Below are positions 38,887-55,293 of a DNA stretch of 57,166 nt, piece after piece. This stretch comes from Candidatus Nanopelagicales bacterium (GTDB lineage: Bacteria; Actinomycetota; Actinomycetes; S36-B12): assembly GCA_017857175.1 (NCBI GenBank), contig JAFMDS010000007.1, forward strand, positions 1-57,166. Reading direction: 5' to 3'. A model generated the notes under the pieces. The model saw nothing but the letters and a program-made list of their open reading frames with translations. It searched no databases and was not told where the DNA came from. Numbering within the stretch: position 1 is the stretch's first letter; each line of letters begins with the position of its first letter. Both the position numbers and the translations under genes were made by a program.

Positions 38887-39624
38887 TTAGACGAAGTCTG
38901 CCAAGCTTCGATTGTCAAAAAGATCGAGGTCCTTTGCGAGAGTTGCTTTCCAATCCGCCAGCGCTTTCGCAGCAGCAGGTTTATCGCCCAAAGCTACGTG
39001 TGAGCGAATAACTTTTCTAATTGCCACCTCTGAGAACGGATTCAATTTCAATAGCTCGTGTGACATGAGCAAACTGGATCGAGTATCACCTTGCGCAGCC
39101 CACAGGTCACTGAGCAAATCGAGTGAGCGTTCCATGATTTGGGCCAAATTCAATCTTTCCCTGGCAATCCACTCCCGCTCAATTCCGGGGAGGAATGGTC
39201 GTCGTACTATGGCATAGGCAACGGTGGCTTGGCGCAAAGCGCTGTCAATGTCGCCCCGCCGATGGGAACCTTCGGCGTCATCAATGCTACGAACAGCCGT
39301 GCGTATGTCAATGTGAACATTCGACGGCCACTTGAGTTGCAAGTAGCCGCCGGTCGAAATGAGAAGGTCTTTCGAAGGAAGCGCAATATTTGCCAATCCA
39401 CGCCTGAGTCTGCTGCACGTCGCGTTGAGCACAGATTCTGCGGTTGAAGGCAGATTTTCCTCCCAAAGATTATCAATGAGTACGTCTCGCGGAATCGCAT
39501 CAAGAGAAAGCGAGAGATTAGTCAGGACCATGCGGCCAATAACGCCACTCATGTCACCGTGAGACATGTATTGCTCACCATGTCGGATCGAGAACGTACC
39601 GGCCAGATTTACTCGGACTTCCAC
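38887..39624 (-). CDS. SARP-type transcriptional activator (BTAD)
   Basis: 245 residues. An N-terminal OmpR/PhoB-like winged helix (about 1-95; VNLAGTFSIRHG, then AESVLNATCSRLRRGL as recognition helix) is followed by a bacterial transcriptional activation domain (about 100-245) made of TPR-like helices. This is the small SARP layout, without NB-ARC or sensor parts. SARPs bind heptamer direct repeats and recruit RNA polymerase. Two perfect heptamers 11 bp apart lie in the divergent promoter (39672-39689), so the five-gene operon to its right is the likely target. The GTG start follows TAGGTT by six bases. Confidence 0.88.
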   Translation of the reverse strand: MEVRVNLAGTFSIRHGEQYMSHGDMSGVIGRMVLTNLSLSLDAIPRDVLIDNLWEENLPSTAESVLNATCSRLRRGLANIALPSKDLLISTGGYLQLKWPSNVHIDIRTAVRSIDDAEGSHRRGDIDSALRQATVAYAIVRRPFLPGIEREWIARERLNLAQIMERSLDLLSDLWAAQGDTRSSLLMSHELLKLNPFSEVAIRKVIRSHVALGDKPAAAKALADWKATLAKDLDLFDNRSLADFV

Positions 39625-39630
39625 TCGAGA

Positions 39631-39636
39631 AACCTA
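39631..39636 (-). promoter_or_regulatory. -10 box TAGGTT, leaderless SARP gene
   Basis: On the reverse strand TAGGTT ends six bases before GTG 39624. Confidence 0.6.
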
Positions 39637-39671
39637 GCATCACGGCCAGTCGAGGTAATGAGGAATCTCGA

Positions 39672-39704
39672 TGCAAGGCTATTGCAAGGTAGAAACTCTA
39701 GAGT
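39672..39704 (+). promoter_or_regulatory. SARP heptamer direct repeats and -10 box
   Basis: TGCAAGG occurs at 39672-39678 and again at 39683-39689, a period of 11 bp (7 plus 4). TAGAGT at 39699-39704 starts nine bases after the second repeat. In known SARP promoters heptamer repeats with 11-bp period lie about 8 bp before the -10 box, taking the place of a -35 element. The operon leader would begin near 39711 and run 65 bases to the first ATG. Confidence 0.65.
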
Positions 39705-39775
39705 GTGAAGCGTGAAGTTTTTTAGTGCATTTCACGGTGAATAAACAAATAGCCAATGGCGAAGGAGTAATTGCA

Positions 39776-39931
39776 ATGAGTCAGGAAATTTTTTCAGTTG
39801 AGTGTCCTTGTGGGTCTGTATTGACGCATGAGGAGTTTGCTACGCTAGTTGTTGAAGTTCAAGCGCATGCAAAGGGAAATCACAACATGGATTTAACGGT
39901 CGAAGATATACAAAATATGGCCAGCAACTAG
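39776..39931 (+). CDS. DUF1059-like small protein
   Basis: 51 residues, first gene of the operon facing the SARP gene. It has the CPCGSVLTHEEFATLVVEVQAHAKGNH pattern of DUF1059: a Cys-x-Cys loop, an acidic segment and the HAKxxH motif, then DLTVEDIQNM. The two Cys and two His could hold a zinc ion. AAGGAG lies eight bases before ATG 39776, so this operon is read with a leader, unlike most promoters in the window. The gap to the next gene is 15 bases. Confidence 0.82.
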   Translation: MSQEIFSVECPCGSVLTHEEFATLVVEVQAHAKGNHNMDLTVEDIQNMASN

Positions 39932-39946
39932 TGAGGGAGTTTTCAC

Positions 39947-40276
39947 ATGTCTCGAAAATATTTGGTACTTGGTAACTACACCGCTGATGGACTAGCAGGT
40001 GCGATGAAGGTGGGTTTTGAATCGCGATTCGACGCAATTGTGAAAGCGGTCACCGACCTGGGCGGTACCCTCATCGAATATAGTTTTTGTCAAGGAACTT
40101 ATGACTTTGTAATTCTGACAGAGTGGGAAGACGAGTCGAAAGCGATGCTCCTGCCCATGGTCGCCGCAGCATCAGGAGCTGTGCAAAGTCACTCAATCCG
40201 GCTTATTCCTGCCCAAGAGATGGACCAAACACGCAGTCACCTGCAGGAGGTGCACTGGAGTGCTCCAGGAAAATAG
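39947..40276 (+). CDS. GYD domain protein
   Basis: 109 residues matching the GYD family: KYLVLGNYTADGLAG at the N-terminus, a helix with AIVKAVTDLGG, and the region around GTYDFVILTEWEDE that gives the family its name (here GTYD). The fold is a ferredoxin-like alpha/beta barrel expected to dimerise. Function is unknown; GYD proteins often occur with stress or catabolic genes. The ATG has GAGGGAG upstream at about 9 bases. It is in the middle of the SARP-controlled operon. Confidence 0.85.
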   Translation: MSRKYLVLGNYTADGLAGAMKVGFESRFDAIVKAVTDLGGTLIEYSFCQGTYDFVILTEWEDESKAMLLPMVAAASGAVQSHSIRLIPAQEMDQTRSHLQEVHWSAPGK

Positions 40277-40306
40277 AAATATGCATACGAATGTAAAGGA
40301 AAAGTG

Positions 40307-40648
40307 ATGTCAAATATTTCGGTCAAGAATTTTGATAAAGATGGCGCGATGAGTGAAAAACCTAATGCGAAGCTTTCAGTGGTCGAGTTGCTCAATGGAA
40401 AGGCAACGCGCCTAACGTTGGAACCAGGTTGGCGGTGGTCGACAGACATCGCACCTCTGGTGGGAACCGCAAGCTGTGAAGTACACCATCTGGGTTTCAT
40501 AGCTTCGGGAGCCGTGACCGTTGCCCACTCAGGGCAAGAAGTGTCCTATTCCGCCGGGGAAGTGTATGAAATTAACGCCGGTCATGATGCGTGGGTTGTT
40601 GGTGACACACCCGTTGTCGCCTATGAATTCTCTGGATCTTGGGCCTAA
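40307..40648 (+). CDS. Small cupin protein
   Basis: 113 residues, one cupin barrel (about 35-110). It follows the pattern of small actinobacterial cupins with LEPGWRWSTDIAP, EVHHLGFIASGAV and INAGHDAWVVGD. The metal site is reduced: the first motif has HH but not the full HxH plus Glu set, and the second keeps GHDAW. It may bind a ligand rather than catalyse. AAAGGA lies six bases before ATG 40307. It is the third gene of the operon, 30 bases after the GYD gene. Confidence 0.8.
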   Translation: MSNISVKNFDKDGAMSEKPNAKLSVVELLNGKATRLTLEPGWRWSTDIAPLVGTASCEVHHLGFIASGAVTVAHSGQEVSYSAGEVYEINAGHDAWVVGDTPVVAYEFSGSWA

Positions 40649-40689
40649 GTACCGCCCTGTCACGCATCGATCATAGAAAAGGAAAAACA

Positions 40690-40974
40690 TTGAAACTATA
40701 CGGAACTGTCATGACCGCACGGTTAAAGGTGCCATTCGAAGCTTTTGAGGAGGCGATGAATGCGCGAAAGAATCCAGTTGGCTTTGTGAGTGGAAGTGTG
40801 ATGCGCGTTGATGACGGGGTCACGGTTGTGGGAACCTTTATTTTTGAAAGCAAAGAGGCCTACGCTGCCCTGGCAGAATTACCCGATCAAGGGGAGTGGT
40901 TCGCGAGTGTTATTGCTCCCATGCTTGATGGGGATGCGATCTGGCTAGATGGGCACATTGGTCTCAACCAGTAG
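40690..40974 (+). CDS. Dimeric alpha/beta-barrel (ABM-like) protein
   Basis: 94 residues, probably a one-domain ferredoxin-like barrel of the antibiotic-biosynthesis-monooxygenase or YCII-like type: a first strand LYGTVMTARL, a helix FEAFEEAMNAR, paired strands and a second helix AYAALAELPDQGEWFASVIAPML. No catalytic residue can be named. I start at TTG 40690, which has AAAAGGA about six bases upstream; longer frames run into the cupin gene. Fourth gene of the operon. Confidence 0.6.
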   Translation: MKLYGTVMTARLKVPFEAFEEAMNARKNPVGFVSGSVMRVDDGVTVVGTFIFESKEAYAALAELPDQGEWFASVIAPMLDGDAIWLDGHIGLNQ

Positions 40975-41054
40975 GTATGCAAATTCCCATTGGTGTGGCC
41001 TTGCTTCTGAGGCTGAACTGTTGAAGCCGGGTAGCGGTGCGGTTTACTGGGGCA

Positions 41055-41822
41055 GTGGACTTCACTCAGGAACCCGAATTGTGGTTCCTCGCACTTGGAC
41101 TCACAATGCTCGTGGCGTTGACGCACGTATTCGCACCATCAATTCTTGACAGCAAGTTTCTCAACAGCACGGCGACCCGCCAAGCTTCGGTTGCTTCCTT
41201 TTCAGGCGGTGTGGCTGTGGCATATGTGTTCGTTCACATGTTGCCCGAGTTGGCCGATGGAGAACTTGCGTTCGCAGACGTGTCTCTGCCAGATGCCATT
41301 CCTGATTTATTCGTTCAGTCCTCCCTCTTCTTTGTTGCCTTAATTGGATTAGTCGTTTTCTATGCTTTTGATGCGAAAGCCGAAGAGTCCAAAAGCGGCT
41401 CCAAAATTCTTTATCGCGCCAATCTCTTGACCATTGGAATGCTGAGTTTCATCTTTTCCTACACAACCCCAGATCGAATTGAATTAGGCCCAGATTTTGC
41501 GATTCTTTTCGCGGTCGTAATGTCACTTCATTTCATTCTCACCGATCGAGGACTAGCACGTGCTCACCCAAAGCATTTTGCTCGTTCGGATCGCTGGGTG
41601 CTGACGGTGTTCCTTTTGGCAGGGTTACTGACCGCTTATATTGCGCCACCACCCAATGAACTTTTTGTCGCTGTACCAACAGCATTTCTTGGTGGTGCAG
41701 TTTTGATGGCGGTATTCCGTGAAGAGTTGCCCAATGTCAATGTCGCCAGGCTCGGCTGGTTTACCTCGGGAGTTGTAATTTTCACCGCCCTCCTCCTGTG
41801 GGCTACGTATATAACCCAGTGA
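41055..41822 (+). CDS. Multi-helix membrane protein, remote ZIP-like
   Basis: 255 residues with about seven or eight membrane helices. The segment SGGVAVAYVFVHMLPEL recalls the HxxPE helix of ZIP metal transporters, and a later helix has SLHFILTDRGLARAHPKHF with several His; full ZIP motifs are missing, so the assignment is weak. I start at GTG 41055, with TTTACT six bases upstream (one mismatch to the leaderless box); GTG 41037 is possible. It ends the operon facing the SARP gene, 80 bases after the ABM-like gene. Its last codons lie in a 29-bp tandem repeat. Confidence 0.6.
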   Translation: MDFTQEPELWFLALGLTMLVALTHVFAPSILDSKFLNSTATRQASVASFSGGVAVAYVFVHMLPELADGELAFADVSLPDAIPDLFVQSSLFFVALIGLVVFYAFDAKAEESKSGSKILYRANLLTIGMLSFIFSYTTPDRIELGPDFAILFAVVMSLHFILTDRGLARAHPKHFARSDRWVLTVFLLAGLLTAYIAPPPNELFVAVPTAFLGGAVLMAVFREELPNVNVARLGWFTSGVVIFTALLLWATYITQ

Positions 41823-41866
41823 CAAAAACGCTCACTGATATAACCCAGTGATAAAAACCCTCACTG
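41809..41866. repeat. 29-bp tandem repeat across convergent gene ends
   Basis: Two adjacent 29-base units (41809-41837 and 41838-41866) differ at two positions. Each contains CAGTGA and TCACTG, a 6-bp inverted repeat around an A-rich loop, so two small hairpins stand in a row. The first unit holds the stop of the membrane protein gene, the second codes the last residues of the HATPase protein on the other strand. Confidence 0.85.
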
Positions 41867-42233
41867 ATAGCCGCGAGCCTGTAACCGAGTAGTCCCATGA
41901 CTGACTCAACCGCTCAACGAGTGCTAGTCCGCGGCCATTTTCCGTCTCTGAATTCGAATCGAGATGTGCGCTGTCAACAGTAAGCGTTACCTGAGGATCA
42001 CTCACGTGGTGTGCAACAACCACGCAAACAGTGTTATCCAGTCGACTGATTGCCATTTCGATATCGCCATCTCCATGAAGATATGCATTGGTCACCAACT
42101 CAGATACAACCAATTCCAAGGTGTCCCGTGCCGTGAAGTCAGGGAAGGTCTCCAACACTGCCTTGCGGGCAAGCCTTGCGCAGTCCCGTTTGGGCTCAAA
42201 AACTAGATGGAGAATGTCGCCGTCAGTACCCAT
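41832..42233 (-). CDS. HATPase_c anti-sigma-factor-like protein (RsbW/SpoIIAB type)
   Basis: 133 residues forming one GHKL ATP-binding domain of the serine-kinase anti-sigma type. The N-box is LELVVSELVTNAYLHG, and the G1 box is reduced to ENGRGLALVERLS. Such proteins hold or phosphorylate anti-anti-sigma factors, but no sigma or STAS gene is near. The ATG lies five bases after the helicase stop on the same strand, so it is expressed with the helicase. Its C-terminus, VRVFITGLYQ, is coded by the 29-bp tandem repeat, so the end of the protein may be recent. Confidence 0.85.
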   Translation of the reverse strand: MGTDGDILHLVFEPKRDCARLARKAVLETFPDFTARDTLELVVSELVTNAYLHGDGDIEMAISRLDNTVCVVVAHHVSDPQVTLTVDSAHLDSNSETENGRGLALVERLSQSWDYSVTGSRLSVRVFITGLYQ

Positions 42234-53967: not shown

Positions 53968-55293
53968 GTGGTCCCCTCCCGCATGTCCCTGATGCTGCGC
54001 GCCGCCATGGCCTTGCTCATGGCCAGCGCCGTGATGGCGGTTGGCACCGTGGAAGTGAGTCCCGTTCAAGCCGAGTCATTGGATTCCATTAAGTCTGCTC
54101 AAAAGGTCAATGCCAATCGGATGGATGACACAGAGCAAGCACTTGAAGGCGCGAAGAAGCGTATTCGTAAAGCCGTAACCGCAGCGACTATTGCCCAAAG
54201 AAAATTTGAGAATGCCCAGCGAGAGAAAAAGTCCGCCCAACGTGAAGCACGGCGAAGTGCGGCGGTTGCCGACCAACTCAGGCGCGAGGCGGCGTATGCA
54301 GAGAGTGAATATGCACTTGGAGTGCGGGCAAAGGTCCGCATCCAAGCCAAACTTGAGTCACAGCGCAATGACATGGACTCCGTCGCTCGCGCTGTCTATC
54401 AGCAGGGTCCGATTAATGAGCTCGAAGTAATCTTTAACTCAAATACTCCGGCTGATTTCACCGCGAATCTAGTTGCTGTTGACTACATAAGCAGACAACA
54501 GCAGAACGTTGAAACAGCGATTATGGTTACGCAGGCTGAAGTCAATATGCAGGAAGTTCGTTTAAAGGAACTTTCAAGCAAAGCATCCGTTGCGAGCGAC
54601 AGAGCTCGGGTGCAGCTGCGCAAAGCCGAGCAGGCCCTTGCAAAAGCAACGGCCAAGCAACGTGAAGTTGTGAAATTACGTGCAGCAAAGAAAGCCGCCC
54701 TGAAGAAGGCCCGGCAATATGCAGGCCAAGTCAAGTTGCGATACCAACGGTTGAAAAAGGAAGAACGTCGATTACAGACGGCGGCCAAGAAGGCGATTGC
54801 GGCGGCCGCGAAGGCAGCAGCTCAAGCCAAGGCGCGAGCTCAAGCCCAAGCCCAAAATCAAGGTCAGAATTCCAGCGGTGAACTCAGCTGGCCAGTTCCT
54901 GGCTACTCGAAATCAGGGAGTGTCGGCCCGAGAATCCACCCGATTTACGGCTATAACTCGTGCCATACCGGTATCGACATTGGCGCGCCGTCTGGCTTGT
55001 CCGTGAAGGCTGCAGAATCCGGGACCGTAGCGACAATCAGTCGAGGAGGGATCTATGGCAATGCCGTCCTCCTCGTTCACGCCAATGGACTGACTACTTT
55101 CTATGCGCACCTATCCAGCACAAGCGTTCAGATTGGCCAGAGCGTTGGCGCGGGGGAGCAAGTGGGTCTGGTCGGTTCGACCGGCTGGTCAACCGGCCCA
55201 CACCTGCACTTTGAGACCCGCATCAATGGCACGCCCTATGATCCGATGGGTTGGTTTGGTGGAGCGAAGACTCAAATTGGTTGTTCGAACTAG
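53968..55293 (+). CDS. M23 peptidoglycan endopeptidase with coiled coil
   Basis: 441 residues. An N-terminal signal sequence (about 1-35, ending VQA) is followed by a long Lys/Arg/Ala-rich coiled coil (about 40-300) and an Ala/Gln linker. The LytM domain has zinc ligands His333 and Asp337 in HTGID and the HLH of GPHLHFE (His412, His414). The coiled coil resembles EnvC and the Mycobacterium RipC partner of FtsX. It would cut peptide cross-links at division under FtsEX control, which fits its position. The start is leaderless. Confidence 0.93.
   Translation: MVPSRMSLMLRAAMALLMASAVMAVGTVEVSPVQAESLDSIKSAQKVNANRMDDTEQALEGAKKRIRKAVTAATIAQRKFENAQREKKSAQREARRSAAVADQLRREAAYAESEYALGVRAKVRIQAKLESQRNDMDSVARAVYQQGPINELEVIFNSNTPADFTANLVAVDYISRQQQNVETAIMVTQAEVNMQEVRLKELSSKASVASDRARVQLRKAEQALAKATAKQREVVKLRAAKKAALKKARQYAGQVKLRYQRLKKEERRLQTAAKKAIAAAAKAAAQAKARAQAQAQNQGQNSSGELSWPVPGYSKSGSVGPRIHPIYGYNSCHTGIDIGAPSGLSVKAAESGTVATISRGGIYGNAVLLVHANGLTTFYAHLSSTSVQIGQSVGAGEQVGLVGSTGWSTGPHLHFETRINGTPYDPMGWFGGAKTQIGCSN

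Follow-up and report, generated by a model that had tools for sequence, protein, structure and literature searches.

The window examined here is a stretch of 57,166 nucleotides from an aquatic actinobacterium, a Candidatus Nanopelagicales bacterium. In it, a gene for a regulator of the SARP family on the minus strand faces five plus-strand genes at 39776-41822. SARPs have been studied almost only as switches of antibiotic clusters in Streptomyces, and the question raised by this locus is what such a regulator controls here. Our answer, in which we have high confidence, is that the SARP binds heptamers between the divergent genes and activates an operon led by a DUF1059 gene, and that the locus is one case of a SARP/DUF1059 module that extends through the phylum Actinomycetota.

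The regulator gene (38887-39624, minus strand) starts with GTG and encodes 245 amino acids. BTAD was the only Pfam domain found in the protein (9.4e-8, above the cut-off); in this search the protein had neither an ATPase nor a sensor domain. The AlphaFold2 model (pLDDT 93.7) has an OmpR-type winged helix together with the BTAD, and Foldseek matched it over 244 columns to EmbR (2fez, TM 0.84) and AfsR (8k60, TM 0.83). In the matched AfsR structure, the SARP domain is in complex with polymerase and promoter DNA, and the profile of the SARP also matches AfsR at 6e-23. The domain order, the size class (about 250-300 residues) and the heptamer layout of the operator are all those of a small SARP. 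Thus, Pfam and the predicted fold agree with the preliminary description, which had called the divergent gene a small SARP with a winged helix and a BTAD. ActII-ORF4, RedD and DnrI have the same size class and domain make-up, but those small SARPs are located in antibiotic clusters.

Between the SARP gene and the operon, the sequence reads TGCAAGG at 39672-39678 and again at 39683-39689 on the plus strand, with CTAT between the copies, that is, with a period of 11 bp. Nine bases past the second copy stands TAGAGT (39699-39704), so that the repeat and the box announced in the preliminary description are indeed there. We predict that the two heptamers are the operator and that TAGAGT is the -10 box of the operon promoter; transcription of the operon is predicted to start near 39711. 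The ribosome-binding site of the first operon gene, AAGGAG, lies at 39762-39767. On the minus strand, a putative extended -10 element of the SARP gene, TGCTAGGTT (39632-39640), stands about 6-7 nt ahead of the SARP GTG, and in the related locus L015 TGCTAAATT precedes the GTG with the same spacing. Because the element is just ahead of the GTG and the arrangement in L015 is alike, the SARP mRNA is predicted to be leaderless.

To estimate how often such an operator arises by chance, we made 20,000 dinucleotide shuffles of the region 39625-39775. Of these, 0.75% held a perfect 7-mer repeat at 11 bp, and 0.03% held such a repeat with TAnnnT placed 8-9 nt after it. Elsewhere in the window there is one perfect 7-mer repeat at 11 bp, at 54644, and the exact operator pattern has a single occurrence in the window; the 2.0-Mb assembly as a whole also has just one. 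By the shuffle rates the operator alone is beyond chance yet not conclusive, and it is the comparison across genomes that makes it decisive.

The layout also fits the published rule. In published SARP operators, heptamers are separated by 4-bp spacers, and 8 bp lie between the final repeat and the -10 element (PMC10936776); with our heptamer frame, the gap is 9 nt. The SARP-LAL regulators PimR, SanG and PolR recognise the heptamer CGGCAAG, likewise with 4-bp spacers (PMC3367932, PMC5930380), and GCAAG is common to CGGCAAG and TGCAAGG. PimR also has only one target, which it binds between divergent genes, as is predicted for the window SARP. Unlike the window SARP, however, these three regulators carry large additional domains, and the clusters they control are for antifungal or nucleoside antibiotics.

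The preliminary description had listed the operon genes as DUF1059, GYD, cupin, ABM-like and membrane proteins. Since automatic operon calls give false ORFs in GC-rich DNA, we counted only ORFs that were read by eye or matched by Pfam. The second gene (39947-40276, 109 residues) encodes a GYD-domain protein (PF08734, 1.5e-16). The third (40307-40648, 113 residues) encodes a cupin, which is under the cut-off in Pfam (Cupin_2, 5.9e-4) and is homologous to the cupins of the L080 and L119 modules (phmmer to the L080 cupin, 8.9e-24). The fourth (40690-40974, 94 residues) is conserved in L012-L014 and may form a dimeric alpha-beta barrel, but Pfam, including ABM (PF03992), and NCBIfam gave no match for it; an ABM gene does occur in the L034 operon (8e-11). 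The fifth (41037-41822, 261 residues) is by hydropathy a membrane protein with about six transmembrane segments, and its weak Pfam match to ZIP (PF02535; 0.0015, 18.2 bits) falls short of the cut-off of 35.1. Thus, the listed content stood for the GYD gene by Pfam, the membrane gene by hydropathy, the DUF1059 gene by its relatives and, more weakly in Pfam, the cupin, but not for the ABM-like gene. The NCBIfam search gave nothing decisive. A 29-nt tandem repeat with a hairpin and a T-run (41809-41866) is a probable terminator at the convergent end of the operon. It separates the operon from a convergent HATPase_c_2 (anti-sigma-like) gene (41832-42233) and overlaps the 3' end of that gene.

The first operon gene (39776-39931, plus strand) encodes a protein of 51 residues. 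By itself it scores under the Pfam gathering score for DUF1059 (PF06348; 13.3 bits vs 21.1), but 23 of 25 aligned relatives match the family with E-values up to 0.05 (best 2.5e-9). A CxC and an HxxxxH motif (C10, C12, H31 and H36) are invariant across the 25 aligned proteins. These four residues likely form a metal site, and we regard the protein as a small putative zinc-binding protein. Its AlphaFold2 model (pLDDT 93.5) is a beta hairpin with two helices, and a PDB fold search with this model gave no match (best E-value 1.9). No mention of a SARP together with DUF1059 was found in the literature searched, in which DUF1059 itself is almost absent, with just two papers naming it, and subscription journals are thinly covered.

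We then compared 57 related genomes. Many of the relatives drawn on in this work are probably metagenome assemblies (the four named ones, Candidatus Nanopelagicales and Actinobacteria MAGs, are). A close SARP was present in five of the 57, with 91-100% identity within the genus and 73% in another genus, and the DUF1059 gene was present in the same five. The pattern TGCAAGGN4TGCAAGG occurred five times in the 57 genomes, once per SARP-bearing genome and always between the SARP and DUF1059 genes; the reversed-sequence control gave zero matches. Scanning 166 genomes of the order with a profile revealed no further close SARP ortholog. The locus of the other genus, L015, has TGCAAGGTTATTGCAAGG followed by nine bases and TACAGT in an otherwise diverged spacer. 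Its operon consists of DUF1059, a DUF3764-type protein and a small membrane protein. That is, DUF1059 is kept while the remaining genes change.

Within the genus, the cassette of about 39.0-41.8 kb (L012, L013, L014) is 90-100% identical between species, whereas the flanking genes are about 72-80% identical. These values indicate that the cassette was recently exchanged between species at one chromosomal site. Identical promoters within the genus therefore carry little weight, and we dropped them as evidence, the three copies being recent exchanges. In the UBA3120 copy (L013:4884-5422) the cupin gene is broken into two frames, which reflects either a frameshift or a fault in the assembly. Elsewhere in the order, in a different family (L083:3157-7224), a large SARP of 1084 residues faces a SnoaL-like gene and a cupin homologous to that of the window.

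The pairing reaches far beyond this order. Profile searches found distant SARPs adjoining DUF1059 genes in L033, L034 and L066/L079; distant SARPs of such pairs are 24-34% identical. The L034 genome has a second module (L047/L080), with DUF1059, a rhodanese-like sulfurtransferase and a cupin homologous to that of the window. When 396 genomes of the phylum were scanned, 29 more SARP loci (L088-L116) came to light. DUF1059 was within about 0.7 kb in 23 of these 29 (20 divergent, two 3' of the SARP and one farther off), a figure that holds for this SARP branch and not for all SARPs, because the profile was built from DUF1059-linked SARPs and is biased towards linked loci, although it has no such bias for the operator. 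On a tree built from 47 SARPs, linkage to DUF1059 needs 4 changes vs 15.4 in shuffles, and the SARPs of L107 and L110, which come from a different lineage within the phylum, form a group with the window SARP (100/100). The same gene pair, which had been proposed for a search in related actinobacteria, is therefore present both in close relatives and across the phylum.

Not every SARP or DUF1059 gene belongs to such a pair. DUF1059 genes in general were rejected as evidence, because only one of 25 weaker DUF1059 loci (L054-L078), namely L066, has a SARP within 1.5 kb; the linkage is thus a property of this SARP branch and not of DUF1059. Searches in the orders of G359 and G235 yielded mostly large SARPs that lack the module, together with the second small-SARP module, that of G235. 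The small SARPs on Streptomyces plasmids that we examined have no DUF1059 nearby, their neighbours being biosynthetic or other genes. Upstream of these SARPs (L146-L149) are TTGC(G) repeats at 11 bp, which is the same core on the opposite strand, and three of the four sit among fatty-acid/ketosynthase-type biosynthetic genes. In L108 and L109 (L135, L136), a SnoaL-like gene is divergent from the SARP, DUF1059 is at the 3' side, and the upstream CAA operator is absent.

To compare operators, we used 25 non-redundant SARP/DUF1059 intergenic regions from across the phylum. CAA pairs at exactly 11 bp were present in 24 of the 25 regions (38 pairs), and there were none at a distance of 10 or 12. 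In 1000 shuffles, by comparison, 11-bp CAA repeats turned up in 1.0 loci on average and never in more than 6, and the other-strand control, TTG at 11 bp, gave one locus of the 25. The heptamers form chains of two to four with the consensus (G/C)(C/G)CAA(G/C)N. In 16 of 24 loci, the distance from the last heptamer to a downstream [T/C]AnnnT box is exactly 9 nt, other offsets having at most two loci each; L080, L089 and L090 have TACAAC or TAGAAC at this position. Loss of the heptamers from orthologous promoters had been named beforehand as the result that would refute the proposal, and the comparison gave the opposite, with the repeat retained and its spacing to the -10 box fixed. CAA repeats at 11 bp are also found upstream of some large SARPs without DUF1059 (L037, L038, L040), and the heptamer is therefore not unique to the module.

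The gene pair, the operator and the spacing are thus conserved together. It might be argued that the heptamers serve another regulator and that the SARP is a mere neighbour, since in L034 the gene pair is present without a recognisable operator. However, in the 57 genomes the operator is found wherever the SARP is and nowhere else, an 11-bp direct repeat with a 4-bp spacer is the signature of SARPs, and the core is common to the PimR, SanG and PolR heptamers. We consider such a coincidence very improbable.

From these sequence comparisons, we propose binding, activation and autoregulation as follows. The small SARP would bind as a side-by-side dimer to the two TGCAAGG heptamers, which replace a -35 element, and the bound SARP would hold RNA polymerase on the TAGAGT box of the divergent promoter. 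With the heptamers lying where a -35 element would be, recruitment of polymerase by the SARP to a weak -10 box is to be expected. In response to an inducing signal, the SARP would activate the operon behind this promoter, which begins with DUF1059 and is probably the only one that it controls. In 17 of 24 loci, no more than about 13 nt separate the SARP start from the beginning of the first heptamer (47 nt in the window), and SARP transcription is therefore expected to fall on binding; the same binding would probably limit the SARP's own transcription in most relatives.

This short distance could also mean that the SARP is mainly a repressor or a dual regulator, which shuts its own gene and holds the operon off until a signal arrives. 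The bound protein would block the SARP promoter in those 17 loci, and a review lists a repressing SARP, Atr32 (PMC10972967). But direct heptamers at a fixed 9 nt from the operon -10 box are the activator geometry of AfsR, and poor -10 boxes (CAnnnT) are common, as would be expected of activated promoters. We therefore judge repression as the main role to be unlikely, and activation of the operon is the reading we retain.

The genes behind DUF1059 vary among the relatives and include those for rhodanese, CN-hydrolase (nitrilase), methyltransferase, DsrE, glyoxalase, ABM, GYD and cupin proteins and a second DUF1059. In L122, L129, L130, L138 and L144, two different DUF1059 genes stand in tandem behind the SARP promoter, and the second one of L122 is a canonical PF06348 member (8e-15). 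Such enzyme types occur in biosynthetic clusters, and with methyltransferases, nitrilases and SnoaL proteins near DUF1059 in relatives, the module might be part of a specialised-metabolite cluster in which GYD, cupin, SnoaL, methyltransferase and nitrilase form a small pathway. However, no ORF longer than 710 aa was found in the 57-kb window, which therefore holds no modular PKS or NRPS, and, with no large biosynthetic ORF in these 57 kb, the window SARP is not placed like an antibiotic-cluster SARP. The module is flanked by acyl-CoA dehydrogenase and HpcH/HpaI lyase genes (Pfam), and the cargo changes by lineage while DUF1059 stays. We regard a metabolite cluster as rather unlikely. Instead, the comparison indicates that DUF1059 is the constant target and that the other operon genes are variable cargo: the window would be one case of an Actinomycetota-wide module in which a small SARP is locked to DUF1059 through 11-bp heptamers with a CAA core, and the slot behind DUF1059 would take variable enzymes that handle small molecules.

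Among known systems, AfsR-afsS of Streptomyces coelicolor resembles this module in the SARP-domain fold (TM about 0.83), in 11-bp direct repeats before a poor -10 box and in a small target gene. In contrast to the 245-residue window SARP, AfsR is a global regulator of about 1000 residues that includes ATPase (NOD) and TPR domains; moreover, the target here is DUF1059 and the repeat sequence differs. By analogy with afsS, a small gene activated by AfsR, DUF1059 may perhaps be a feedback partner. EmbR of Mycobacterium tuberculosis shares the fold of winged helix and BTAD (TM 0.84) and is no antibiotic-cluster regulator. Unlike the window SARP, EmbR has an additional FHA domain, and we know of no DUF1059 partner for it. 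The preliminary description had suggested a new kind of SARP target. The phylum-wide pairing with DUF1059 speaks for this, but roles of SARP-type regulators outside antibiotic clusters were already known from AfsR, acting on afsS, and from EmbR.

We tentatively extend the proposal, at somewhat less than even confidence, to a phylum-wide SARP branch dedicated to DUF1059 and not to antibiotic clusters, in which DUF1059 would be a metal-binding co-regulator or sensor feeding back on the SARP, and in which the slot would hold exchanged detoxifying or tailoring genes.

Since the SARP/DUF1059 pair and the 11-bp spacing of its switch are kept in more than 20 distant relatives besides this aquatic actinobacterium, the SARP family appears to have a second role that is widespread and has not been described before. 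Here, among Actinomycetota with small genomes and uncultured ones, one family of SARPs is tied to a domain of unknown function. The operator is so regular that its targets should be predictable from sequence, and DUF1059 gains a regulatory context and a clear route towards its function.
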